Source of the DNA: Lachnospiraceae bacterium G41
GTDB taxonomy: Bacteria; Bacillota; Clostridia; Lachnospirales; Lachnospiraceae
Reading direction: 5' to 3'
NCBI GenBank assembly: GCA_900100245.1
Contig: FNEU01000001.1
Location: forward strand, 248,001-312,000
DNA: 64,000 bases
The notes below the pieces were generated by a model. That model had not been told where the DNA came from and made no database searches. It saw nothing but the letters and a program-made list of their open reading frames with translations. Of the stretch, positions 2,585-31,353 are shown one piece after another; the stretch's first letter is position 1, and each line of letters begins with the position of its first letter. Position numbers and translations under genes: made by a program.

Positions 2585-4039
2585 TTACTTAACATTGTAT
2601 ATTCTGTAAATCGAAAAATCATAGTAAAGAAAATGAAAACCGTAGACCTTGTCATAATCGCACTCTAAGAACCAGCCGGGGTTTTTGTTGTCAAAACATA
2701 TAAGATATACATCTCCCGCAATCTTATCAAGCTGTTCTTTGGCGGTAAACGTCTCGTCATTCTCAAAAGGATTGAAATCATCCTCAAAAGCGTATATAAA
2801 AGAATAATTCTCATCGTAATAGACGCTTAAGTAGTTATTGTGAAGATCCGCATAAAGTATCGCATCATCAGGTTTGAAATTACTCTCGGCGTAAGCAAGA
2901 TAATCATCTATTCCTTTTTCGTATTCGTATCTCACCCTGTCTCTGTAAACAAGCGCTCCCGGGACAAAAGCCATCAGAAAAATAACCACATAAAGAATTT
3001 TCATCTTCATTTCGTTTAAGCCCGCAGCTATTGCAAAAAGAATAAGTGGTGCAACGCAGGATACATATCTTCCAAGGAAGCAGGGAGAGTTATTAACCGA
3101 CAGTATTATTCCTATGGCGCTTACGGCAAAAAACATGATAAATGTAAGCGATACATATTTTGTATATTTGCTCTTATATACAAGCAGGAAAATAAGCGAG
3201 ATAAATATAATCGCAAGCCACAGCCATACCTGCCAGCCCTTTTGATATGTGATAGATGAGAAGAATTCATAGAGGATATCTTTTACGAAATACATCGAAT
3301 CGTATTCGGTATTCACACCTTCGGCTTTTTTGCCAAACTGGGAAACAAGGCTGAAAAGCCAAGGAAGATAACAAAGTGATACAACTGCTGCGTTTATTAA
3401 AAACCACGTGATTTTTCTTTTACGATCTTCTTTGTTCATGATGATGGCAATTGCAAGGAAAAGATAGATAAATACCGTGCAAAGCATCGTATAGGTATGA
3501 ATGTATGTTGAGAATACAGATGCGATGAAAAACCATACCGCGTAAGATACTTTAAACTCTTTTGCAAGTTTGTATCCGAGGAAGCAAACGAACGAGAATG
3601 ATGTAATGGCCATTGCATACATTCTGGGCTCTGTATTATGTGTAAGGAATGTGGGAAGAAGTCCTGATAAAATAATCATGGTCAAGGACATTCTGAAGCC
3701 GAATTCCTTTTTAAAAGGACACGCAAGGAGCCAGAAATAAAAGCCCATAAAAACAAGCGAACAGATTTTAATACCGAAAATATGATTAAAGAAAACATGG
3801 TAAAAAATCTTCGCTATAAAATAATACAAAGGCGAATGCACGTCATTTGAGCAAAGCCTTATAATATCTCCAAACGAATGACGGACCATGGCCACGGTAT
3901 AGCCCTGGTCGTACGCAAGGTTTTTGGTCAATGCCAGCGGAAGCCATAAAAGCATTATGGCCGCTATGCACACATAAAGGATAATATTCTGTTTTTTCTC
4001 ATCATCTACGAATGATTTAAGTTTCTCTTTAAGTTTCAT
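2585..4039 (-). CDS. GT-C fold membrane glycosyltransferase (GT39/PMT-like)
   Basis: 484 residues with about ten membrane segments. The arrangement is typical of GT-C enzymes using a polyprenyl-phosphate sugar donor. An acidic residue occurs in the first extracytoplasmic loop (AYDQGYTVAMVRHS, Asp near 45), then NDVHSPLYYFI, then the TEPRMYAM motif of the PMT_2/ArnT group. The C-terminal 100 residues form a soluble outside domain rich in aromatic and acidic residues. It probably transfers a sugar to an exported polymer, lipid or protein; the acceptor cannot be read from sequence. It lies 30 nt downstream of the barnase-like gene in the same operon. Confidence 0.8.
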   Translation of the reverse strand: MKLKEKLKSFVDDEKKQNIILYVCIAAIMLLWLPLALTKNLAYDQGYTVAMVRHSFGDIIRLCSNDVHSPLYYFIAKIFYHVFFNHIFGIKICSLVFMGFYFWLLACPFKKEFGFRMSLTMIILSGLLPTFLTHNTEPRMYAMAITSFSFVCFLGYKLAKEFKVSYAVWFFIASVFSTYIHTYTMLCTVFIYLFLAIAIIMNKEDRKRKITWFLINAAVVSLCYLPWLFSLVSQFGKKAEGVNTEYDSMYFVKDILYEFFSSITYQKGWQVWLWLAIIFISLIFLLVYKSKYTKYVSLTFIMFFAVSAIGIILSVNNSPCFLGRYVSCVAPLILFAIAAGLNEMKMKILYVVIFLMAFVPGALVYRDRVRYEYEKGIDDYLAYAESNFKPDDAILYADLHNNYLSVYYDENYSFIYAFEDDFNPFENDETFTAKEQLDKIAGDVYLICFDNKNPGWFLECDYDKVYGFHFLYYDFSIYRIYNVK

Positions 4040-15361: not shown

Positions 15362-15400
15362 CAAAAAAAGCAATCAAATAAGAAAAACTTAAATGATTGC
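15362..15400 (-). terminator. riboswitch-linked terminator
   Basis: GCAATCA and TGATTGC arms with a partly paired middle and seven U, sitting between the aptamer and the ribosome binding site. The stem starts only a few bases after the aptamer, so ligand binding can plausibly bias its formation. Confidence 0.75.
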
Positions 15401-15477
15401 AGTCTAACTACCTGGAAATAATTCCTTACGGCTTACGACTTTGCGTCCTAACCTTTCGGTTAGTTTGCCCTTATCAC
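15401..15477 (-). ncRNA. c-di-GMP-I (GEMM-I) riboswitch aptamer
   Basis: On the minus strand the conserved GEMM elements occur in order. GGGCAAAC is followed by a stem CTAACC/GGTTAG capped by a GAAA tetraloop, then GGACGCAAAGTC, a second hairpin, and the receptor-side CCAGGTAG. The transcript would begin right at the aptamer and reads into the terminator at 15362-15400 and then the DUF4214 gene. It binds c-di-GMP. Whether it turns expression on or off cannot be decided by eye. Confidence 0.9.
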
Positions 15478-15483
15478 AAAAAA

Positions 15484-20623: not shown

Positions 20624-21593
20624 CGTCAAATCTGAATCCTTTCGAGAGTACAAATCCCTTGGCAATCTCCTCGGGCATATCGGGATGTGCGGGATATAAA
20701 AGAGCCGTTTTGTTTCTAAGATACGGTTTTCTGTTATAAAATCCCACTCCGCCCGGATGAGTATTAAGGAATATATTCTGCCCTTTCATTTGAGAGCATA
20801 AAAGATCGACTACCTTCTGACCGATATGAAGTCCCTGATATTCGGGATCCACTGCCACATTCAGTATAAGTGCCTGATTATTCTTATCCGATACCGCCCT
20901 TGCACATCCGACCAAAGCTTTGTCTATGTATGCAAATGCAAAATGTCTGCTGTTATTAAAAGCCTTTTTTGTAGCATTGATATTACGATTGGAACCACCG
21001 AACGCTTTAATTAAAAGAGCATTTATCGCTTCAAAATCAGGATTATCAAACTTTGTATCATATACAATTTCTGTTTTGGAAATATCAATCGAACTCTTTT
21101 TTCCTACAGGAAATGAACCCGCAAAAGGAAGATGCTCGATATCATATTCATAACCCAAAGGCAGATAGAATTCTTCTTTGGGTTGCTTTAAATCATAATC
21201 TGCATTATAACCTTCATAAGTAAATGCATTCTTTGATCTCTTAAATCCGAGTTCTTCGTATAATCCAAGATTTGCTTTATCCGATACGACGAATAATTCG
21301 TGCCCATTAAATCTTTTAAGAGTTCTTTTTATAAGTTCGTCTTCAATGCCCAACTCCCGATTCTCTTTTTGCACGGAAACTTCCGAAATAAGCGTCCATT
21401 CCACATCATCGGAAATTGCTCTTAAAAAACCTGCAATACGACTGTCTTTAAGAGCAAATACCGAATATGTGCTGTTGCAAAAAATATCTTTTACATTTTC
21501 CCGGGTTAGACCATTCTTTTTAGAAACGTTCTTATAAAAATGATACAAATCCTCAATATTTATTTCTTGTAAGTTATCTGTATATTCTGTCAT
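20613..21593 (-). CDS. double GNAT acetyltransferase
   Basis: 326 residues with two GNAT folds. The N-terminal one (about 5-110) has VSVQKENRELGIEDELIKR. The C-terminal one (165-320) has the better acetyl-CoA loop VAVDPEYQGLHIGQKVVD. The ATG overlaps the stop of the preceding GHR-like gene in ATGA, with GGAG...GAGGT in front. Substrate unknown. Its place among cysteine genes hints at acetylation of a thiol compound or amino acid, which is inference. Confidence 0.82.
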   Translation of the reverse strand: MTEYTDNLQEINIEDLYHFYKNVSKKNGLTRENVKDIFCNSTYSVFALKDSRIAGFLRAISDDVEWTLISEVSVQKENRELGIEDELIKRTLKRFNGHELFVVSDKANLGLYEELGFKRSKNAFTYEGYNADYDLKQPKEEFYLPLGYEYDIEHLPFAGSFPVGKKSSIDISKTEIVYDTKFDNPDFEAINALLIKAFGGSNRNINATKKAFNNSRHFAFAYIDKALVGCARAVSDKNNQALILNVAVDPEYQGLHIGQKVVDLLCSQMKGQNIFLNTHPGGVGFYNRKPYLRNKTALLYPAHPDMPEEIAKGFVLSKGFRFDDEQ

Positions 21594-22744
21594 ACCTCTG
21601 CTCCGGGTATATTCCATCTTGAAGGATTAATAACCGTTTTATATTCTTCGATTGTTTCTCCCTTGGGATGGCGAAGGAATTTCTCATCGGGCGTACGGCT
21701 TAATTTCTTTCTGTCCTGAGGTGCACTCCATAATCCTTCAAAATCAATCTGGTCAACAAATCTTTCGTTGTATGATTTGAATATTCCGGGTTTGGAAGGT
21801 ACTCTTGAAAAGTCCTTAAAATAAGTATTATTCTTAAACGCCGGAATTTCATACAAATCTCTCGCATAAGCCCAGATATTCTTATGGTCAACCATTCTCT
21901 TCTGCTGGGGCCCGAGATTCTTGTAATAATACGAATCCCATCTTGCAAGAGTTACGAAAAAGCGGATATCCGAATCGGTCACATAGTCACCGAAAAGGAA
22001 ACGGTTGTTTTCAAGTCTTTTATCAAGCTTATCCATGGCTGAGAAGAAATCATCATAAGCTTCGTTATATGCCACCAGACTCTGGCAAAATGCCATACGA
22101 TAATGTGCGTTGTTGATGTTAGGGAAAAGCCAGTCGTTTAATCTGTCAATTTCACCTCTCAAATCCTTGGGATAAATATCAGGTGCATCGGGTGACTGGA
22201 ATTCTCTGAAATTAACTTCCAGATAATTGGTTAATCTGTGGTAATCATTGTTTACCACTTTTAATGTTTCCTTGTCAACAAGGGCGGGAACAGTTGCTCT
22301 TCCCTTATAATCGGGATCTGCCTTAAGATAAGCTTCCGTTAAGAATTTAAGACCCGTTACCGCATCAGTTCTGTTTGGCTGATCGGTAAATCCCCATCCG
22401 TATGTATTTGATTCTCCTGTATGGTCCACTATCGAAATGCTTATCGCATCTTCAAGTCCGAGAAGTTCCCTCGTGATTGACGCCCTGTTGGACCAATGGC
22501 AGCCTTTAGCCCAGAAAAGATGGTATCTTCCGCTTTCCGCCTTTAAATCACCTTCGTTATCACCAAAAGGTGTCGTGAAGCGATTGGGCTGTCTTATAAA
22601 AGCACCTCTTTCGTTAATCTCAGCTTTTATTTCCTGAGGTCTGGGAGGAACATTTCGCTCCGCAGCATCAGCCTTTGCCAGTTCATCGCTGTATATTACA
22701 CTTTCTTTTATATCTTCTTTAATAAAACTTTCACCGCAAGCCAT
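21590..22744 (-). CDS. glutathionyl-hydroquinone reductase-like protein 1 (CHWS active site)
   Basis: 384 residues of the Xi-class GST family (YqjG/ECM4). A thioredoxin-like domain has the redox Cys82 in KGCHWSNRA where the family usually has CPWAHR. A helical GST C-domain follows with LENNRFLFGDYVTDSDIRFFVTLARWD. Known relatives reduce glutathionyl-hydroquinones through a Cys-S-glutathione intermediate. Clostridia usually lack glutathione, so the thiol here is uncertain. The ribosome binding site is AAAGGAG. One of four paralogues in this locus; it lies 34 nt after the cystine-type transporter. Confidence 0.85.
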   Translation of the reverse strand: MACGESFIKEDIKESVIYSDELAKADAAERNVPPRPQEIKAEINERGAFIRQPNRFTTPFGDNEGDLKAESGRYHLFWAKGCHWSNRASITRELLGLEDAISISIVDHTGESNTYGWGFTDQPNRTDAVTGLKFLTEAYLKADPDYKGRATVPALVDKETLKVVNNDYHRLTNYLEVNFREFQSPDAPDIYPKDLRGEIDRLNDWLFPNINNAHYRMAFCQSLVAYNEAYDDFFSAMDKLDKRLENNRFLFGDYVTDSDIRFFVTLARWDSYYYKNLGPQQKRMVDHKNIWAYARDLYEIPAFKNNTYFKDFSRVPSKPGIFKSYNERFVDQIDFEGLWSAPQDRKKLSRTPDEKFLRHPKGETIEEYKTVINPSRWNIPGAEV

Positions 22745-22778: not shown

Positions 22779-23546
22779 CTAGATTATATAATTGTCCGCA
22801 CTCTCAAGCATGTTGATATTACTTAAGAATGTTTTAAGTCTTTCATTAGTCGGATTTTCAAATATTTCCTTAGGAGTTCCGTCGGCAACAATCTTACCGT
22901 TTTCCAAAAAAATAATCCTGTTCGCTACAGACTTAACAAAATTCATCTCATGAGTCACCAGAAGAATTGTATTTCCTTCTTTGGCTACTCTTTTGATAGT
23001 CAGCAATACTTCGTTAACAAGTTCTGGATCAAGTGCCGATGTCGGCTCATCCATGAGAAGAAGTTCCGGTTCGAGCGCCAGTGCTCTTGCAATGGCAACT
23101 CTCTGCTGCTGTCCGCCTGATAAGTGCTTGGGATAATGATACAGTCTGTCAGACATTCCGACTTTTTCTATCTCTTCCAATGCTTTCTTTCTTGCTTCCT
23201 CTTTGGGTATTTTTTTAACCACCGTCAAACCTTCCATAACGTTTGACAATGCATCTTTGTTTTTAAATAGATTGAACTGCTGGAAGACCATTTCGGTATG
23301 CTGTCGTAACTCAAGTTTTTCTTTTTTGTTCTTGGTGGTTAAATTAAATGTTTTATCATTAAACTTGACACTGCCCGCTTCGGGTTTTTCCAGGAGATTA
23401 AGACATCTTAAAAGAGTAGATTTGCCGGTTCCCGAAGGTCCGATAATGGCTACTACCTCTCCTTTTTTAATATCCAGATCCACATTGTCGAGTACAACGT
23501 TATTACCGAATTTCTTGCTTAGTCCTCTTATCTCTACCAGGTTCAT
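22779..23546 (-). CDS. polar amino acid (cystine-type) ABC transporter ATPase
   Basis: 255 residues. Walker A GPSGTGKST, Q-loop VFQQFNLF, signature LSGGQQQRVAIARAL, Walker B LLLMDEPTSALDP. This is the GlnQ/TcyC type. It overlaps the permease by 4 nt. The neighbouring genes (PatB, CysK, LysR) make cystine or cysteine the likely substrate; the ATPase itself does not show specificity. Confidence 0.93.
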   Translation of the reverse strand: MNLVEIRGLSKKFGNNVVLDNVDLDIKKGEVVAIIGPSGTGKSTLLRCLNLLEKPEAGSVKFNDKTFNLTTKNKKEKLELRQHTEMVFQQFNLFKNKDALSNVMEGLTVVKKIPKEEARKKALEEIEKVGMSDRLYHYPKHLSGGQQQRVAIARALALEPELLLMDEPTSALDPELVNEVLLTIKRVAKEGNTILLVTHEMNFVKSVANRIIFLENGKIVADGTPKEIFENPTNERLKTFLSNINMLESADNYII

Positions 23547-24265
23547 GCCTTCACCTCCTTAGGCTCGGCCGGAATTGAAGTCTTCTTTTCTATCAGAACA
23601 AGAATTCTTTCAAGAACGAAAGTTATTACCCAATATATAATCGCTATCGAGCAGTATGCTTCAAAGTATCTGTAGCTCTTGCCTGCCGTAATCTTGGCAG
23701 CCGCGGTTATTTCCACAACAGAGCAGGTAAATGCAAGTGATGTACCCTTAATAAGCGCTATCAGCGAATTGCCGAGAGGAAGAAGCGCAACCGTTATTGC
23801 CTGGGGAAGTGTTATCCTTCTTAATACCTGAAGACCTGTCATACCCATGGATTTTGCTGCTTCAATCTGACCTTTATCAACCGATTGAATCGCAGAACGG
23901 ATAGTCTCCGAATCAAAGGCTGCCTGATTAAGTCCTAAAGCCACCATTGCGAAAACTATGCCCGGAATCGCGTTAATATCATAATTTGTTCCGTGATAGT
24001 AATTAAAATATTTAAGCGCAATGGGAATTCCGAAATATGTTATATAAAGCTGAACTATAATAGGCGTTCCTCTCATCAGCGACACAAACCCGATTGAGAG
24101 CTGATTCAGAACCGGTACTTTGTTGATTCTGATAACGGCTATAAGAAGTCCTATGCTTAAACCGATTACAAGTGCAATAAAAGTTAAATACAGTGTAGTC
24201 GGCAGATATTTTAATAAATAAGGGATTTGTTTGAATACTAAAACCCCGTCAAATAATTTGGCCAT
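23543..24265 (-). CDS. polar amino acid (cystine-type) ABC transporter permease
   Basis: 240 residues, HisMQ/TcyB type. Five membrane segments; the EAA loop is EAAKSMGMTGLQVLRRITLPQA. The early segment IRINKVPVLNQLSIGFVSLMRGTP is a family signature. The ATG at 24265 follows GGAG by 7 nt; the TTG two codons earlier is not needed. A hairpin separates it from the binding-protein gene, which would favour more binding protein than permease. Confidence 0.92.
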   Translation of the reverse strand: MAKLFDGVLVFKQIPYLLKYLPTTLYLTFIALVIGLSIGLLIAVIRINKVPVLNQLSIGFVSLMRGTPIIVQLYITYFGIPIALKYFNYYHGTNYDINAIPGIVFAMVALGLNQAAFDSETIRSAIQSVDKGQIEAAKSMGMTGLQVLRRITLPQAITVALLPLGNSLIALIKGTSLAFTCSVVEITAAAKITAGKSYRYFEAYCSIAIIYWVITFVLERILVLIEKKTSIPAEPKEVKA

Positions 24266-24288
24266 TTTCAATCTCCGTTATTTTAATC

Positions 24289-24332: not shown

Positions 24333-25265
24333 TTATTCATAAGAAGGAGAGTAATCATCTCCGAAATACTTAAGGTTGATTTCTTTGGATTTACCCTCTT
24401 CGATTACTTCGCGAAGTGCTTTATTGATATCTTCCACAAGCTGCTTGTTTTCTTCAGTTCGGCTTACAATAAGATAACTGTCCATGCCTTCTCCGACACC
24501 GTATCCTGCGAGTGCAATCGCATGAAGATCGTATCCGAATTCAGGCTGATAGTAACCGAAGTACATAGGCTTATCAATGATTGTAAAATCATACTTACCG
24601 GACTGGATATCATTAAGCTGGATGTTAAGATCCTCTTCCGTATAATTAATCTCTATGGGTTTCTCGGGATTTGTATCATTGTAATTCTCAATTAGTGTTG
24701 TAACATTAACGGCTGCCTGTCCGACAAACTTAAGACCGCCCAAGTCTTCTACAGAGAGGCTGTCGGGAAGTTCTACGTCTTTGTTTGCTACAACGATATA
24801 AGCGTTTGAGAAAATAGGATCCGTGAAGTAATACTTTTCTTCACGCTCGGGATTCTTCGCAAAGTTGTTAACGCCAAGCTGGTATTTATCGGAATCAAGT
24901 CCCGCAAAGATTGAAGGGAAATCCGTTACTTCCCAAACAAGTTCGTACTGGGGAAGTTTCTCAAATACCGCTTCAACCAGTTCGATGTTCTGTCCTATTA
25001 CCTGATCGTCATCACCGTAATATGTGAAGGGTCTGGGTGATGCACCGGTTACCGCATAAATCTTTCTGACCTCAACTTCGTTTGTTACCTCTGCAACTTC
25101 GTTTTCAACGCTTCCGCTCTCGCTGTTTGATGCTGCTTCAACATTGACTGTTGTTGCCTCAATGTTTGTTGTGTTGTTTACTTTTCCGCATCCTGTGAGG
25201 CTTGCTCCTATAAGCGCTGCCCCTAAAACTGTTGTAATTAATTTATTTATTTTTTTATTTAACAT
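24333..25265 (-). CDS. cystine-type ABC transporter substrate-binding lipoprotein
   Basis: 310 residues. Lipobox SLTGC (Cys27), a Ser/Glu/Val-rich linker to residue 65, then a type II solute-binding fold (SBP_bac_3). It contains YYGDDDQVIGQNIELVEAV, the arginine-binding-type loop NPEREEKYYFTDP and VGQAAVNVTTLIEN. It captures the substrate outside the cell for the permease and ATPase. It is the first structural gene of the transport operon and is preceded by a 25-codon cysteine-rich ORF. GGAG lies 12 nt before the ATG. Confidence 0.92.
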   Translation of the reverse strand: MLNKKINKLITTVLGAALIGASLTGCGKVNNTTNIEATTVNVEAASNSESGSVENEVAEVTNEVEVRKIYAVTGASPRPFTYYGDDDQVIGQNIELVEAVFEKLPQYELVWEVTDFPSIFAGLDSDKYQLGVNNFAKNPEREEKYYFTDPIFSNAYIVVANKDVELPDSLSVEDLGGLKFVGQAAVNVTTLIENYNDTNPEKPIEINYTEEDLNIQLNDIQSGKYDFTIIDKPMYFGYYQPEFGYDLHAIALAGYGVGEGMDSYLIVSRTEENKQLVEDINKALREVIEEGKSKEINLKYFGDDYSPSYE

Positions 25266-25328
25266 TTCTTTTTTTCTCCTGTTTGATATTTTTTTTAATT
25301 CTTAAATCATTTATATTTAATCAGTACC

Positions 25329-25406
25329 TTAACGGCACATTCGGTTGTCCTTAAAGTATAAACAACATCGTCCTATGGCTCTTTTTCCTAAAAAAATCTT
25401 TCTCAT
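25329..25406 (-). CDS. 25-residue cysteine-rich leader ORF upstream of the cystine transporter
   Basis: ATG at 25406, stop TAA at 25329-25331, preceded by GGAG 9 nt upstream. The peptide is basic, with RCCLYF at residues 13-18 and a third Cys at 24, the next to last residue. Two adjacent Cys codons (TGT TGT) and one near the stop, in the leader of a cystine importer, suggest a ribosome-stalling sensor of cysteinyl-tRNA. The gap to the transporter ATG is 63 nt. I do not see a classical terminator/antiterminator in that gap, so the mechanism might be translational or messenger stability. Too short for similarity; its reality rests on the ribosome binding site, codons and position. Confidence 0.6.
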   Translation of the reverse strand: MRKIFLGKRAIGRCCLYFKDNRMCR

Positions 25407-25425
25407 TTCTTTGTTCTCCGTTATG

Positions 25426-25442
25426 CCTACCTTTTTGGTGGG
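25426..25442. promoter_or_regulatory. CCTAC-N7-GTGGG dyad in the transporter leader
   Basis: It lies at about +10 to +26 of the predicted transcript. Related dyads with the same 7-nt spacing are at 33756-33774 and 55446-55464. The shape is what an Rrf2-type (CymR/IscR) repressor might bind; no such regulator gene is in the window. Confidence 0.4.
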
Positions 25443-25458
25443 TTATTCATTGAAGAGA

Positions 25459-25487
25459 ATACTATCACGTCTTATTCTTTTTGAAAA
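25459..25487 (-). promoter_or_regulatory. promoter of the cystine transport operon
   Basis: TTTTCA (25482-25487) and TAGTAT (25459-25464) with a 17-nt spacer. Start would be near 25452, so the leader ORF is within the transcript. Confidence 0.55.
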
Positions 25488-25502: not shown

Positions 25503-25533
25503 GACTGGCTATAAGTATTACCTATAGCCAGTC
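25503..25533. promoter_or_regulatory. LysR-type dyad upstream of the cystine transport operon
   Basis: TGGCTATA-N9-TATAGCCA with GAC/GTC extensions. It is centred about 66 nt upstream of the predicted transcription start, the usual place for a LysR activator site. An almost identical copy is at 28359-28383. It can also fold as a hairpin, but no T-run follows it on the minus strand. Confidence 0.5.
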
Positions 25534-25561: not shown

Positions 25562-27028
25562 TTAAATTTCAGGTCCCCTGAAAATTATTCCGTAAGGGTT
25601 CCTGATTTCGTCAAGTTTAGAATACTCTTTTTCCTTCTCTTCGATAATATCCGCCAAATTATCACCTTTTTCGGATATATAATCCTCTTCAAATCTTTTA
25701 ATATTGGCGAAATCATAGCTTTTATAACTGTTTAACTTAAGAAGATGATAGTATATGTAGTCCAGTTTCTTTAAAGTATTAAACAGTAATATATCCGCAT
25801 CACTGATTTCATCAGAAAGAAGGTATTTGCTTTTATCCAGTCTTTTGTTAATTTCCTTAAGAGCATCAAAAAGATTGGCATTCCAACGGTTCAAATCGGT
25901 CTGGAATGTTGACTCGGAAGCCTTTTTAATCGGTTCAAGCACAAATTTGTTCAGATATTTAATTTCGGTCTTAACGTCTTTATGCGAATAATATTCACTG
26001 TAAAAACCTGTGTTTTTCTCGTAGCTATAAAGATTGTCTTCATCATTTGAGAGTTTTCTTCTGTCTGTTGCTTCAAACAATTCTCTGTAGTCCGGTCCTG
26101 TTCCCACAAGGCCGAACACATTACCCTGTTTGGCTCTCATATGAGGCGAAAGCTGATAATGTTTTTTTATCTCATCAAGTTTTGTAAACTCGTAAAATGC
26201 GTCCGTTTTAAACAATTCCCTTGTATATCCCCAGAGATTGGGATACTCCTGCAATCGCTTTTTATTCACGCCAAAGACAAGATGGTAATTGATATAAAAC
26301 CTTATTAATGCCACATAAAGATGAATATCGGAGAGCGTAATATAATCTCCGTGCAAAAATCTTTTATCCGAGAGTCTCTCTTCAAGTTCATCCAGAGCAT
26401 CGTGGAACATCTCATAACCCCTGTCGTACTGCTCCTGGTTAAGCGCAAATCCGCATGCATACGCATTAACCTTGGTTTTGATAAACTCAATTGTTTCGTC
26501 AATTTCTTCTCTTAAGCTTACAGGGTACAAATCGGGAGCATTTTCTTTGTGATACTGTTTCCAGTCAACAATAAGATACTTGGGAATATCCCATGCTTCA
26601 TTCTGTACGACGGCACCGGTTTTGATATCAACTATAGCAGGTACCGTCGATCTTCCCGTGAAATCGGGATCGCCCTTAAGATATGCATCATCGAGATAAT
26701 GAATCTTAAGTACAGGGTCCACTTCTCCCAAATCTCCGGAAAATACCCATCCGCGCGGGTCTCTTAATATCCCGCATTCTCCGATACTGATTACTCTGTC
26801 AAGTCCGAGAAGGCGTGCTGTTATTACAGCCTTATTCGAATGAGGGCAGCCGGGCATCCATATGATGCGGTATCTGTCAGACTCTATTGAAAGATCGTTT
26901 TCGCCCGGTCCGAAATGTCTGTTAAAAACAAATTCCCTGTCGTCGATTTTGCCTGTCTTTTTATTAATCTGATGCCTGAATGTGTTTTCAAAAAGTCCAA
27001 TTGTCTGAAACGGTACTATATATGACAT
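25562..27028 (-). CDS. glutathionyl-hydroquinone reductase-like protein 2, with duplicated GST C-domain
   Basis: 488 residues, over 100 longer than its paralogues. Residues 1-300 are the usual thioredoxin-like plus helical GST layout, with active-site motif GCPHSNKA (Cys near 60) and LSDKRFLHGDYITLSDIHLY. Residues 365-460 repeat the helical pattern (LNRWNANLFDAL, LDKSKYLLSDEISDADILLF), so they look like a diverged second GST C-domain. The ribosome binding site is AAAGGAG. Located between patB and the transport operon. The function of the extra domain is unknown. Confidence 0.82.
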   Translation of the reverse strand: MSYIVPFQTIGLFENTFRHQINKKTGKIDDREFVFNRHFGPGENDLSIESDRYRIIWMPGCPHSNKAVITARLLGLDRVISIGECGILRDPRGWVFSGDLGEVDPVLKIHYLDDAYLKGDPDFTGRSTVPAIVDIKTGAVVQNEAWDIPKYLIVDWKQYHKENAPDLYPVSLREEIDETIEFIKTKVNAYACGFALNQEQYDRGYEMFHDALDELEERLSDKRFLHGDYITLSDIHLYVALIRFYINYHLVFGVNKKRLQEYPNLWGYTRELFKTDAFYEFTKLDEIKKHYQLSPHMRAKQGNVFGLVGTGPDYRELFEATDRRKLSNDEDNLYSYEKNTGFYSEYYSHKDVKTEIKYLNKFVLEPIKKASESTFQTDLNRWNANLFDALKEINKRLDKSKYLLSDEISDADILLFNTLKKLDYIYYHLLKLNSYKSYDFANIKRFEEDYISEKGDNLADIIEEKEKEYSKLDEIRNPYGIIFRGPEI

Positions 27029-27042
27029 ATTATTCTCCTTTC

Positions 27043-27078
27043 AAAAAATAAGTTAAATCCTTGGATCTAACTTATTTT
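27043..27078 (-). terminator. hairpin over the end of patB
   Basis: AATAAGTTA and TAACTTATT arms around a GATCC/GGAT core, followed by a T-run. The first arm covers the patB stop codon region, so it would attenuate read-through into the next gene. Confidence 0.65.
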
Positions 27079-28272
27079 TCTCTTCTGTTCACAAATCTTA
27101 AATGTATTCACAAGTCTTTCGAGTGCATCTTCAAGAGTCTTTCTCGGACATGCCACATTGATTCGCTGAAATCCCGAGCCGACTCTGCCGAAGATATTTC
27201 CTCTGTCGAGCCAGAGCTTCGCATCATGCACTATGATGTCGTTTAATTCTCTGTCCGTAAAATCATAATAATTAAAATCCAGCCATAAAAGATACGTCCC
27301 CTCAGGTTTTCTTACCTTTACCTCGGGAAGATTCTCAGACAAATACTCTATGGCATAATCAAGATTGGATTCTATTGCTTTCTTAACGCCCTCAAGCCAC
27401 TCTTCTCCGTATGTATACGCTGCCTGACACGCGATTATACCCATTCCGTTTATCTGGCTGAAGCCCGCTGCCGAGTACGCTGCATGAAATCTGTTGTAAA
27501 TCTCTTTGTTGCTTGTGATAATTCCGGATACCTGAAGGCCTGCGAGATTGAATGTTTTGCTCGGAGATACCGATGTAATGCAGAATCTGTCATAACCCTC
27601 TCCGGCATTCGTAAAAGTAGTAAATTCGCTGCCCCATACAAAGTCCGAATGAATTTCATCGCTGAAAACTATTATTCCGTATTTTTTGCAGAGCTCCCCT
27701 ATTTTATGCAATTCTTTTTTGCTCCAGACTCTTCCCACGGGATTGTGAGGGGAACAAAGAAGATAGAGTTTCGGTCTGTATTCTTTTATCTTTTCTTCAA
27801 GATCCTTAAAATCGATTCTGTAATATCCGGTCCCGTCATTAACCAGGTCGCTGCTTATAATCTTTCTGTTGTTTTCCTTAATCGTTCCCATGAACGGATA
27901 ATATACGGGCTGGTTAATCAGTACATATCCGCCTTCTTCGGTAAACGCTTTTACTGCGGTTGCTATCGAAAAAACAACCGAAGGCGATTTGTGAAACCAC
28001 TCTTTTTCTATAACCCTGTTATAATGCCGTGCTATATAGTTTTTAAGCGCTTCAAGAAAATCATCATCAACTTCCGTATATCCGAATATCGCATGTTTAG
28101 CCTGTTCAACAAGTGCATCCTCTATGTATGAAGAAGTGCGATAATCCATATCCGCTACCCAGAGAGGCAGCACATCGTCAGGGAGATGTCTCTCTTCCTT
28201 AAAGTCGTACTTTAGGCTTTTCGTACCGTATCTGTTTGTAACACTTTCAAAATCCAAATTTCTTTCGCTCAT
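27067..28272 (-). CDS. PatB/MalY-type cystathionine beta-lyase
   Basis: 401 residues of the PLP fold-type I family. The PLP lysine is in SPSKTFNLAG, with the upstream SDEIHSDFVW and LCSPHNPVGRVW and the C-terminal FQRINVACPR (carboxylate-binding Arg). Members cleave C-S bonds of cystathionine or cysteine to pyruvate, ammonia and a thiol; MalY also acts as a regulator. With CysK and a cystine importer it could interconvert cysteine, cystathionine and sulfide. A LysR-type dyad lies upstream. Confidence 0.92.
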   Translation of the reverse strand: MSERNLDFESVTNRYGTKSLKYDFKEERHLPDDVLPLWVADMDYRTSSYIEDALVEQAKHAIFGYTEVDDDFLEALKNYIARHYNRVIEKEWFHKSPSVVFSIATAVKAFTEEGGYVLINQPVYYPFMGTIKENNRKIISSDLVNDGTGYYRIDFKDLEEKIKEYRPKLYLLCSPHNPVGRVWSKKELHKIGELCKKYGIIVFSDEIHSDFVWGSEFTTFTNAGEGYDRFCITSVSPSKTFNLAGLQVSGIITSNKEIYNRFHAAYSAAGFSQINGMGIIACQAAYTYGEEWLEGVKKAIESNLDYAIEYLSENLPEVKVRKPEGTYLLWLDFNYYDFTDRELNDIIVHDAKLWLDRGNIFGRVGSGFQRINVACPRKTLEDALERLVNTFKICEQKRKIS

Positions 28273-28358
28273 TATTATTTCCTGTCCTAATCTTACTTTT
28301 GATTGATATCAAGTTTAATCAATGAAAAGCAAAATGAATAATATTAAAAAAAAAGAGT

Positions 28359-28383
28359 TGGCTATAGGCATTACCTATAGCCA
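28359..28383. promoter_or_regulatory. LysR-type dyad upstream of patB, also a terminator for the LysR gene
   Basis: TGGCTATA-N9-TATAGCCA differs from the copy at 25506-25530 in only two spacer bases. It lies about 90 nt before the patB ATG. On the minus strand the hairpin is followed by nine T within 11 nt, so it also makes a strong terminator after the LysR gene. Both roles can hold together. Confidence 0.6.
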
Positions 28384-28416
28384 ACCGGTTTTGTTCGTTT
28401 AGTTAAAATCTTAAAA

Positions 28417-29325
28417 TTATTTTTGGGTTCCTTTGTATTTGCTTATTTCATCAATATATCTCTGTCCCAAAGGAGAGATTGACATACCCTTTCTTACGAT
28501 ATATCCGACGGTATTGATGTCCTCGCTGTCGAGTTTGACGGCGCAATGCTCGGAGCCGTTTAAATGTTCGCATATAATACCTGAGCATACGGTAAATGCA
28601 TTAAGGCCTATCATAAGATTAAGACCTGTGGCTCTGTCGCAGACTCTTAATGTCTGATTGAACTGATATGTCGAAAACATCTCTTCGGCAAAATAAAATG
28701 AGTTATTGATTCCCTGCTCAAATATTATGCACGGATACGAATTAAGTTCGTCAAACGTAACTCTTTTTTTCTTGGCAAGAGGATGCTTTTTCCACATATA
28801 TGCATATACACCGCAGTCTAACAAAGGATGAAATTCGAGTTCGTTTTCATCAAGAAGTTTGGTAATTATTTTACGGTTAAAATCATTAAGATAGAGAATA
28901 CCTATCTCACTTTTAAACTTCTTTACATCCTGAATAACGTCATATGTTTTTGTCTCATACATGGCAAAATCATAGCCGTCCATTCCAAACTCTTCGACCA
29001 TTTTGGCAAATGCGTCTACCGCAAAAGCATAATGCTGCGCGGAAACACTGAAACGTTTCTTGATTTTACCGCCCGTTATATATTTGTTTTCAATCAGTTC
29101 GTACTGCGTAACAACCTGCTTGGCATATCCGACAAATTCTTCCCCTTCGGGCGTCAGACTAATCCCGCGATTGGAACGGATAAAAATATTAATACCGATC
29201 TCCTCTTCAAGTTCACGGATTGTAGCCGAAATCGAAGGTTGCGAAATAAACAATTTCTTAGACGCTTCATTCATCGAAGAGCTTGATGCTACCGCAATAA
29301 CATAATTTAACTGTGAAAGAGTCAT
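28417..29325 (-). CDS. LysR-family transcriptional regulator
   Basis: 302 residues. N-terminal winged helix (MTLSQLNYVIAVASSSSMNEASKKLFISQPSISATIRELEEE region, residues 1-60), then a LysR substrate-binding domain. It resembles the CysL/CynR/CysB-like group; the C-terminal SPLGQRYIDEISKY is common in Firmicute LysR proteins near sulfur genes. A cysteine-pathway effector such as O-acetylserine is likely but inferred. It follows cysK by 49 nt. Probable target sites: the two TGGCTATA dyads. Confidence 0.92.
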   Translation of the reverse strand: MTLSQLNYVIAVASSSSMNEASKKLFISQPSISATIRELEEEIGINIFIRSNRGISLTPEGEEFVGYAKQVVTQYELIENKYITGGKIKKRFSVSAQHYAFAVDAFAKMVEEFGMDGYDFAMYETKTYDVIQDVKKFKSEIGILYLNDFNRKIITKLLDENELEFHPLLDCGVYAYMWKKHPLAKKKRVTFDELNSYPCIIFEQGINNSFYFAEEMFSTYQFNQTLRVCDRATGLNLMIGLNAFTVCSGIICEHLNGSEHCAVKLDSEDINTVGYIVRKGMSISPLGQRYIDEISKYKGTQK

Positions 29326-29374: not shown

Positions 29375-30304
29375 TTATTCGTAAAGGTCACCGGACAGAT
29401 AATGTTCTCCGCTGTCGGGAATGATTACCACAATGTTTTTACCTGAATTCTCGGGACGTTCTGCGATAACTTTGGCTGCATATAAAGCTGCGCCTGCAGA
29501 AATGCCTACGGTAAAGCCTTCAAGTCCGGGGATAAGTCTCGCATATTCGTAAGCCTGATCGTCCGTTACATCTATTACTTCATCAAATATCGAAACATCA
29601 GTTACGGGAGGGATTGCACCGCCGCCGATACCCTGAATCTTGTGAGGGCCTGCAGTTCCGCCGTTTAAAAGCGCACTTCCCGTAGGCTCTACGCCGATTA
29701 CCTTAATATCGGGGTTCTGCTCTTTAAGGAATTTGCCTGCACCGCTTACGGTTCCTCCGGTTCCGGCAGCCGATACGAAAATATCCACTTTACCGTCTGT
29801 ATCTTCCCAGATTTCGGGACCTGTTGTCCTATAATGTGCAAGAGGATTGTTTGGATTGCCACCCTGTCCAAGGATAACCGCATTTTCAGTTTCAGCCAGC
29901 AATTCTGCTGCCTTTGCATTTGCACCTCCCATATTTAAATCACCCGGTGTATGATAAACTTCTGCACCGAAAGCTTTTAATAGTCTGGTTCTTTCTTCCG
30001 AAAGATTATCAGGCATACAAATCTTAACCTTGTATCCTTTCGCTGCCGCAATCGAAGCAATGCCTATACCGGTATTGCCGGATGTGCCTTCGATAATCGT
30101 ACCGCCTTCCTTCAAGTCACCTGCTTCTTCCTTGCCGTTAATCATCGATAAAGCGATTCTGTCTTTTACGGAACCTGAGGGATTAAAGAATTCAAGTTTG
30201 CCGAAAATCTTATTGTCTGTACCAATCTTTTTTTCAAATGCATGAAGCTCAAGAAGCGGTGTGCGTCCTATAAGCTCTGTAATATTGTGATAGATTTTAC
30301 CCAT
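29375..30304 (-). CDS. cysK: cysteine synthase
   Basis: 309 residues. O-acetylserine (thiol)-lyase, a PLP fold-type II enzyme that makes cysteine from O-acetylserine and sulfide in the cytosol. The PLP lysine is in NPSGSVKDRIA, the substrate loop is GTSGNTGIG, the phosphate-binding glycine loop is GTGGTVSGAG, and EPTGSALLNGG covers the active-site entry. Length and motifs are those of CysK. It lies 53 nt after a GHR-like gene in the sulfur operon. Confidence 0.96.
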   Translation of the reverse strand: MGKIYHNITELIGRTPLLELHAFEKKIGTDNKIFGKLEFFNPSGSVKDRIALSMINGKEEAGDLKEGGTIIEGTSGNTGIGIASIAAAKGYKVKICMPDNLSEERTRLLKAFGAEVYHTPGDLNMGGANAKAAELLAETENAVILGQGGNPNNPLAHYRTTGPEIWEDTDGKVDIFVSAAGTGGTVSGAGKFLKEQNPDIKVIGVEPTGSALLNGGTAGPHKIQGIGGGAIPPVTDVSIFDEVIDVTDDQAYEYARLIPGLEGFTVGISAGAALYAAKVIAERPENSGKNIVVIIPDSGEHYLSGDLYE

Positions 30305-30357: not shown

Positions 30358-31353
30358 TTACTGCTCTTCAATCCTGAATTTATGTTCGGGATCTTTGCTT
30401 AAGCCCTCTCTTCCTGACGGAATATTCCATATTGAAAGATCCGGTCCGAGGGGAAGGATATCATTAGGATTGGTCTTTAAACAACATAAGTGATAATGCT
30501 TCTTAATCGCTTCAAAATGCGTATTGTCGCCAAATGCACTCTCAGCATACAGATCCCTCGCGTATCCCCAAAGATTCGGATAATCCTTAAGCATCTTTTT
30601 ATTGACTCTGAAACCGTTGTAGTAGGCAATGTCAAATCTTGCGAGTGTAACATAGAGTCTGATATCAGATTCGGTAATATAGTCGCCAAATAAAAATCTC
30701 TGATTTGATAGTCTTTCCTCGAGCTTGTCAAAAGCATCAAAGACGAGTTTAAAAGCATCAGAATAGGCTTCCTGGCTCGTTGCAAACCCCGCCTTATATA
30801 CGCCGTTGTTGACATTGTGGAATATATAATCGTTAAGCTCTTCGATATCGTCTCTTAATTCCACGGGATACAGCTCGGGAGCGTCTTTTTTATGATATTT
30901 TTTCCATGCCGTTTCAAAATATGTGGTGAGTTTAGAATAATCATTGTTCACCACAGCCCCGGTTTTAAGATCTACAATTGCGGGAACCGTATATCTTCCC
31001 TGATAGTCTGGATCAGCTTTTTTATAAGCTTCACTTAAAAGATGAATACCAAGGACAGGATCTTTGTCGCCTTCATCAAGCGTAAACGCCCAGTCAGACC
31101 AGGGCACATCCGGTCTTATGGGGTCAAGTGTTCCTACCGATATTACATCCTCAAGACCCATGAGCTGTCTTACGATAATCGATCTGTTGGCCCAGGGGCA
31201 CACAGGTGCCCACAGAAGCCTGTATCTGTCTTTTTCTACAGGAAGTTCACCTTCCTTATCTCCAAACGGCGTTACGAATCTGTTGGCCTGTCTTTCGAAT
31301 TTACCGTTACTTTGTATTTCTCCGTTTGTTACATGATCTACGACTGCCATCAT
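30358..31353 (-). CDS. glutathionyl-hydroquinone reductase-like protein 3 (CPWA active site)
   Basis: 331 residues, the usual length. Active-site APVCPWANRS (Cys near 52), DYQGRYTVPAIVD, and LSNQRFLFGDYITESDIRLYVTLARFD in the helical domain. This copy keeps the canonical CPWA and is closest to the known family. The start overlaps the stop of the upstream paralogue in ATGA, with GGAGG in front, so the two are translationally coupled. Role in a glutathione-poor organism is unclear. Confidence 0.88.
   Translation of the reverse strand: MMAVVDHVTNGEIQSNGKFERQANRFVTPFGDKEGELPVEKDRYRLLWAPVCPWANRSIIVRQLMGLEDVISVGTLDPIRPDVPWSDWAFTLDEGDKDPVLGIHLLSEAYKKADPDYQGRYTVPAIVDLKTGAVVNNDYSKLTTYFETAWKKYHKKDAPELYPVELRDDIEELNDYIFHNVNNGVYKAGFATSQEAYSDAFKLVFDAFDKLEERLSNQRFLFGDYITESDIRLYVTLARFDIAYYNGFRVNKKMLKDYPNLWGYARDLYAESAFGDNTHFEAIKKHYHLCCLKTNPNDILPLGPDLSIWNIPSGREGLSKDPEHKFRIEEQ

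Follow-up and report, generated by a model that had tools for sequence, protein, structure and literature searches.

The window analysed here, a stretch of 64,000 nucleotides from Lachnospiraceae bacterium G41, contains on its minus strand an importer operon composed of the genes for a family-3 solute-binding lipoprotein (SBP_bac_3; 24333..25265), an ABC permease (23543..24271) and an ABC ATPase (22779..23546). The top NCBIfam models of all three products are cystine transporter parts (the cystine permease model for the permease and TcyN for the ATPase), and all scores lie below the respective cut-offs. On the same strand, which also carries the leader features described below, the upstream genes encode a GST-fold protein (25562..27028), a PatB family C-S lyase (27067..28272), a LysR-type regulator (28417..29325) and the cysteine synthase CysK (29375..30304), with PatB and CysK exceeding their NCBIfam cut-offs. 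Three GST-fold genes surround the operon (21590-22744, 25562-27028 and 30358-31353). Elsewhere in the window, a c-di-GMP-I-GGC riboswitch was found at 15394-15478 (Rfam RF03167, 60.4 bits; gathering score 59).

Judged by this gene context, the substrate of the importer would be a sulfur compound, either cystine or glutathione. The nearest PDB sequences of the binding protein are 4c0r and 4eq9, which we take to be the streptococcal glutathione-binding protein GshT. The accessible part of one report describes GshT as acquiring glutathione together with TcyBC (PMC10355420). Because the binding protein resembles these presumed glutathione binders, the name cystine importer, given to the operon in the earlier note, is plausible but inferred; given also the three GST-fold genes nearby, the operon may import glutathione or its conjugates instead. 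In one related operon (L050), a hairpin followed by a short T-run (GCCCGGC..GTCGGGCTTTT, ~2675-2705) lies between the binding-protein and permease genes and perhaps lowers permease expression.

The binding-protein gene is preceded by a short upstream open reading frame (uORF), MRKIFLGKRAIGRCCLYFKDNRMCR, which spans 25329..25406 and has 25 codons, an ATG start and a TAA stop. A GGAG ribosome binding site (25416..25419) is located 9 bases 5' of the ATG, and the stop is separated from the start of the binding-protein gene by 63 nt. The codons CGA-TGT-TGT (25362..25370) specify Arg13-Cys14-Cys15 and are followed by Leu16-Tyr17-Phe18; the Cys pair is followed by ten more codons before the stop, including the TGC codon of Cys24 (25335..25337), which lies within an RMC motif common to the L050 and L084 relatives described below. 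The earlier note had pointed to a 25-codon frame with a good ribosome binding site, to RCCLYF at residues 13-18 and Cys24, and to a place in the leader of a transport operon, and all of this holds.

The uORF is a real feature rather than a chance one. The window has six ATG ORFs of 12-60 codons that are preceded by a Shine-Dalgarno (SD) sequence and lie outside the ORFs of >=90 aa; of these, this uORF alone has a CC pair. When the 210-nt leader was dinucleotide-shuffled 5000 times, an SD-preceded ATG uORF of >=12 codons arose in 527 shuffles, but one with CC in only 2 and one with CC and three Cys in 0. The peptide itself has no Pfam or NCBIfam match.

Orthologs of the binding protein, taken as matches at E <= 1e-30 in 31 genomes of the genus, numbered eight in seven genomes, and a uORF with a Cys codon stands before all eight. 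Three of these leaders (the window's own, that of G419 and one of the G412 copies) are ~99% identical and add little. Six distinct versions can be distinguished: the window, L050 (MRKMFLGKRAVGRCCLYFKDNRMCR), L084 (MSKRIFGRNAKERCCLNHQNMRMCM), L085 (MIKKYGKRAVGRCWHLGHAKSRM), L086 (MNRRKLSGATDRC) and L087 (MNKRKYRGATDRC). The same genus leaders were recovered again in L119-L125, and a near-identical binding protein (98%) is present in record RUG11047. The genome bin G412 holds two operon copies (L050/L088 and L047/L083), the second with a leader 84% identical to the window's, which may reflect two strains in one bin.

In all six versions, the start, the residues A-x-x-R-C and the bases CGATGTTG (CGA-TGT-TG; 25363-25370 in the window) are invariant, while the length, the remaining peptide and the upstream arrangement differ. 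The tandem CC pair, accompanied by a third Cys, is found in three of the six; the L085 peptide has one Cys, and those of L086 and L087 are only 13 residues long and end in R-C-stop, indicating that the Cys codon is conserved and not the peptide. With regard to the conserved CC peptide that the earlier note proposed to look for, a Cys codon recurs in 8/8 operons of the genus and the pair in 3/6 versions. The window and L050 uORFs differ by six substitutions in 78 nt, five of them at third codon positions, with residues 12-25 identical; against L084 there are 29 differences, distributed 8/9/12 over codon positions 1/2/3, i.e., with no third-position bias. CGA accounts for just 24 of the 605 Arg codons (4.0%) in the long ORFs of the window, so that its presence in all six versions stands out; the invariance of CGA may reflect slow decoding or a nucleotide element.

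These patterns bear on two alternatives in which the peptide itself matters. A conserved Cys-rich microprotein that binds metal or acts in redox binding and is co-expressed with the importer would account for the CC pair plus third Cys seen in three versions and for how the substitutions between the window and L050 are distributed, but the single Cys of L085, the stop after one Cys in L086 and L087 and the lack of a Pfam or NCBIfam match to the window peptide make it highly improbable. Alternatively, the peptide could arrest its own ribosome, its basic N-terminus and A-x-x-R-C(-stop) acting in the exit tunnel, so that a small molecule or the termination rate would be sensed instead of tRNA-Cys charging. 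The K/R-rich N-termini, the invariance of A-x-x-R-C in the six versions and the two that end in Cys-stop speak for such arrest; on the other hand, the residues between the start and this motif are variable, and in classical Cys leaders belonging to the same pathway (see below) it is the Cys or Cys-Trp codons that are kept, while the N-termini differ. We regard arrest of this kind as unlikely. Invariance of Arg-Cys and CGATGTTG amid a diverging remainder fits a sensor of Cys codons better than a functional peptide.

The trait is narrow, since no comparable SD-led Cys uORF was seen before the binding-protein relatives outside the genus sample, namely L126 (74% identity) and L127, L128, L129, L006 and L007 (52-60%). 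The 25-aa peptide matched 114 of 397 family genomes at E <= 1, with a best E of 0.024 beyond its own copy; none of 29 further matches (L053-L081), judged by translation alone, was convincing, and the L076 match turned out to be a cysK 3' end with its hairpin. Among the DNA matches to the leader sequence, L049 proved to be an unrelated gene, and L048 corresponds to the L084 leader on its promoter side. The pattern ATGTGYTGYMGNATGR occurred at 93 sites in 83/397 genomes versus 10 for the reversed control. Fifty of the 93 sites were inspected (30 loci plus 20 chosen mainly for the wording TGYTGYCG), giving the SD-led Cys leaders L185, L188 and L190; L015 is among the other 43. L178 is leader-like, but the scan shows no SD for it and it has no recognisable sulfur gene downstream; the remaining inspected sites are not leader-like. 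Twelve related loci gave no Rfam match at gathering score.

The earlier note had interpreted the uORF as an attenuator that reads charged tRNA-Cys. A scan for a hairpin plus T-run found no terminator in any of the six genus versions; likewise, no alternative antiterminator pairing was found in any version, no terminator arm being available as partner. The leader is thus not a classical attenuator. Folding of the leader, which the earlier note proposed as a check for competing hairpins, gave no signal by itself: the whole leader is not unusually structured (z -0.63; 48/200 shuffles fold equally well or better). The window leader has no Rfam match at gathering score, to a T-box or to any other family; the six permissive matches in it belong to RNA families of eukaryotes, each scoring under its gathering threshold.

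Some leader systems work by stalling that frees a downstream ribosome binding site. Translational attenuation, in which stalling on the uORF would free the ribosome binding site of the binding-protein gene, follows this known mode; however, that site (GGAG, 25276..25279) is mostly unpaired in the predicted ensemble of the window, and so are its counterparts in all six versions, with pairing of <=0.27 except for one L050 base at 0.63. SD sequestration was accordingly rejected as the output, and this explanation is very unlikely. Because neither a terminator nor an SD-sequestering structure is found, the most likely output would be that the stalled ribosome shields the gap from Rho or a nuclease, a route that we propose tentatively, with the odds leaning against it. 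The genome encodes rho (above the family cut-off), but the 63-nt gap of the window is A-rich with 5% C, unlike a rut site, so a Rho step can only be inferred. In L087, the uORF and the binding-protein gene are separated by a 179-nt repetitive C-rich, G-poor gap (1322-1500) that resembles a Rho loading site, with 27% C and 4% G in its best 78-nt window.

A classical Cys attenuator was found in the same genome as the window (G000:C10:162934; L234 ~1500, L241 before 1753). It contains ...MCMCCCRMLFSRA..., an antiterminator and a terminator; its uORF is MTNMKTFANNYISMCMCCCRMLFSRACMKTGCLAHLSCTCTD, the predicted antiterminator is CUCCCGGGCC/GGCUCGGGAG (-19.7 kcal/mol), and the predicted terminator GCUCGGGAGUUUAAAACCCCGGGC is followed by U's. 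Downstream lies a binding-protein gene whose product carries an extra MetQ domain, followed by genes that read by sequence as a MetN-type ATPase and permeases, i.e., a sulfur-amino-acid transporter operon. One cell therefore holds the terminator-free Cys leader of the window together with a classical one before a related transporter, so that the window leader, too, is naturally read as a Cys sensor.

Comparable leaders occur in relatives. Cys-codon uORFs with a terminator precede distant relatives of the binding protein in L015, L022, L156 and L135, and the promoter pattern TTGACNTNSTAGGNNNNNNGTGATA derived from such leaders yielded 18 sites in 17/397 family genomes, with 0 for the reversed control. 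At 13 of the 18 (L015, L185 and L190 among them under other locus numbers), a uORF whose Cys codons look regulatory comes next: eleven of these contain CC or CCC, one CW and one WC. The other five sites have no such uORF. The core motif TGNCGNATGNNNNNYTCCCGGGC gave eight sites in 7/301 class genomes (control 0), at seven of which there are SD-led leaders, six with CC or CCC and one (L237) with a single Cys, and these seven include the classical attenuator of the window's own genome; the eighth, L233, is a chance match and not a leader. The TGNCGNATGNNNNNYTCCCGGGC leaders belong to the window's own family (f1) and to three other family codes (f32, f45 and f62). Since the search pattern is narrow, these site counts are lower bounds. 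This Cys leader family, often reading MCCRM..SRA, includes L015, L022, L135, L156, L185, L188, L190, 13 of L208-L225 and L234-L240; its coding sequence is predicted to double as an antiterminator segment, and it stands before metY-like, cystathionine-type, metQ, ABC and LysR genes. NCBIfam was applied to the downstream genes in four cases and assigned O-acetylhomoserine sulfhydrylase (L221, over the cut-off), a cystathionine synthase/lyase type (L216), MetQ (L222) and LysR (L210, a weak model match); the remaining downstream names, metY-like and permease, come from sequence reading. The LysR protein of L210 is 50% identical to that of the window. Seven loci of the family searched against Rfam gave no match.

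A hairpin with a T-run was present in 15/17 leaders (absent in L208 and L219) and in 6/7 of the TGNCGNATGNNNNNYTCCCGGGC leaders (exception L235, where the hairpin chosen by the script is not the leader terminator); the chosen hairpins of L190 and L213 extend past the T-run. By comparison, only 2 of 18 hand-picked binding-protein leaders without a Cys uORF had one (220-nt and 440-nt windows), and both are palindromes 5' of the promoter. The segment after the Cys codons, typically AACUCCCGGGCA (N-S-R-A), is predicted to pair with the terminator 5' arm UGCCCGGGAG. When the uORF segment was mononucleotide-shuffled 200 times, at most 5 shuffles equalled this duplex in 13/15 leaders (exceptions L156 with 37 and L188 with 77) and in 6/7 TGNCGNATGNNNNNYTCCCGGGC leaders (exception L235 with 33, where the wrong hairpin was used). 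Diverged segments still pair, as CUCUCAGACA with UGUCUGGGAG in L219 and CCGGAUA with UAUCCGG in L213. The per-position pairing table is rough, as the chosen segment lies outside the terminator 5' arm in at least 5/15 leaders (L015, L156, L185, L188 and L225), and swapped pairs score high (L219: own 11/12, swapped mean 8.6, maximum 11), since the leaders have the motif in common. A 3' arm reading GCGUUCG or similar, 42 nt past the start of the Cys pair, can pair with CGAAUG directly after the Cys codons, at 6-7 of 7 positions in 7/15 leaders (L185, L188, L214, L215, L221, L222 and L224), and is predicted to sequester the segment until ribosome stalling releases it. These clostridial leaders are thereby predicted to follow the classical attenuation scheme. 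Two loci show further arrangements: the uORF of L208 ends in RMCCCR-stop before a metY-like gene, and as the scan shows no terminator there, this Cys leader from beyond the genus is terminator-free as well; L156 has a second short uORF, MKPHKETLIRQLREFFRCRRG, with CGATGT (3849-3914) between the attenuator terminator and the binding-protein gene. For the window leader, the proposal of a Cys attenuator reading charged tRNA-Cys gains from the Cys codon in 8/8 genus operons and from the classical Cys attenuators before sulfur genes in its own genome and other Clostridia, but in the strict sense the word attenuator does not apply, as neither a terminator nor an antiterminator turned up in the window leader and its five diverged versions.

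The uORF might also be a bystander in an operon controlled only at the DNA level. A putative -10, TAGTAT (25459..25464), was assigned by inspection against TGATAAGAT of L005 and TGATAATAT of L050; a consensus promoter scan did not report it. Between this sequence and the uORF lies the interrupted palindrome CCCACC-N5-GGTAGG (25426..25442), with counterparts found by inspection in L005 (CCTATC-N5-GGTAGG) and L050 (CCCACC-N5-GGTAGG). It is a candidate operator of an Rrf2-type (CymR-like) repressor, and it looks like the same operator type as CCTATT-N5-AGTAGG, which is seen around the -35 of many classical Cys leaders. An Rrf2 gene that follows cysK in this genome scores above the Rrf2 superfamily cut-off but below those of CymR and IscR, so the label CymR-like is a guess that draws on the context and on the Clostridium acetobutylicum CymR case, as far as the accessible text of PMC3828012 describes it. 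Farther upstream, a 14-bp hairpin, GACTGGCTATAGG..CTTATAGCCAGTC (25503..25533; CTATAGGTAATACTTATAG), looks like the terminator of the upstream gene and/or a LysR-type site; a similar palindrome at 28357-28385 (CTATAGGTAATGCCTATAG) resembles both as well. The pattern AAAGGTAGG is not specific, with 11 sites in the genome against 39 for the reversed control, and a short ORF with CC comes next only at the window's site. Sole control by the LysR-type and Rrf2-type sites would agree with the two palindromes just upstream, with the nearby LysR and cysK genes and with the 5/18 related-site promoters that lack a Cys uORF. However, the uORF and its Cys codon persist in L084, where inspection shows a different palindrome, and in L085-L087, where the uORF start overlaps the 3' end of the preceding ORF (also by inspection), so that the uORF is retained under a different upstream arrangement. 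A bystander role is therefore distinctly improbable.

Taken together, the sequence comparisons favour the interpretation that the uORF is a cysteine leader peptide that raises expression of the binding protein through ribosome stalling, to which we assign a probability of about 0.6; sensing of Cys codons by the uORF, taken on its own, is likely, and more so than the full chain. While the importer operon is transcribed, a ribosome would translate the uORF and, under a shortage of charged tRNA-Cys, would stall at CGA-UGU(-UGU). In this position it would most likely block access of Rho, or of a nuclease, to the short A-rich gap and thereby increase expression of the gene for the binding protein, which starts 63 nt further downstream. 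If true, Cys-codon leaders would represent an extra layer of control in gut and rumen Clostridia, coupling sulfur import to translation, and the natural pair with and without a terminator in one genome raises the question of how a stalled ribosome increases expression where no intrinsic terminator exists.

In Firmicutes, cysteine genes are generally described as being under the control of repressors such as CymR, of riboswitches and of T-boxes. Among the top-ranked open-licence papers on leader peptides and attenuation, we found no description of a cysteine leader peptide in Clostridia, in agreement with the earlier note, which knew of none, nor a publication on clostridial CCRM-type Cys attenuators. 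Cys leader peptides are known in other phyla, the nearest cases being the actinobacterial leaders, including those of mycobacteria, and uORFC-8-2; that Clostridia have them, and that one genome holds two forms, seems to be new. According to the accessible sections of Seliverstov et al. 2005 (PMC1262725), terminator-free leader peptides precede the cys operons of Mycobacterium and P. acnes and cbs of B. longum, with Rho proposed as the actor. Like the window leader, these are short Cys-codon ORFs before sulfur genes with no conserved terminator; in the descriptions available there, however, their Cys runs lie near the stop, whereas the window has one invariant Arg-Cys in an SD-led uORF before an importer operon of Clostridia, and Cys stands beside the stop only in L086 and L087. 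The title of Canestrari et al. 2020, cited in PMC13236596, describes leaderless polycysteine short ORFs of mycobacteria through which cysteine attenuates operonic genes; the window uORF has an SD site and a 63-nt gap. The available excerpts of PMC8632094 present uORFC-8-2, located before cysS in Rhodobacterales, with tandem Cys codons usually at positions 14-15, as in the window, and stalling as the proposed sensor; it differs in having an intrinsic terminator and cysS downstream in alpha-proteobacteria, against no terminator and a solute-binding protein here. Leader peptides before hisS/hisZ in bacilli, as outlined in the accessible part of PMC2965389, share the Firmicutes background but involve histidine, and no cysteine leader is named there. 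Also comparable are the clostridial CCRM-type attenuators, including L234/L241 of the same genome, which, like the window, place a Cys-codon uORF before sulfur-amino-acid genes; most of them have an antiterminator segment in the uORF and an intrinsic terminator, and the window leader has neither. Clostridia may possess a cysteine-codon leader regulon with two forms in one genome, classical attenuators before sulfur-amino-acid genes and terminator-free shielding of the transcript from Rho or nucleases at an invariant CGA-UGU before a glutathione/cystine-type importer, convergent with the mycobacterial cys leaders, a possibility that we place somewhat short of even odds.
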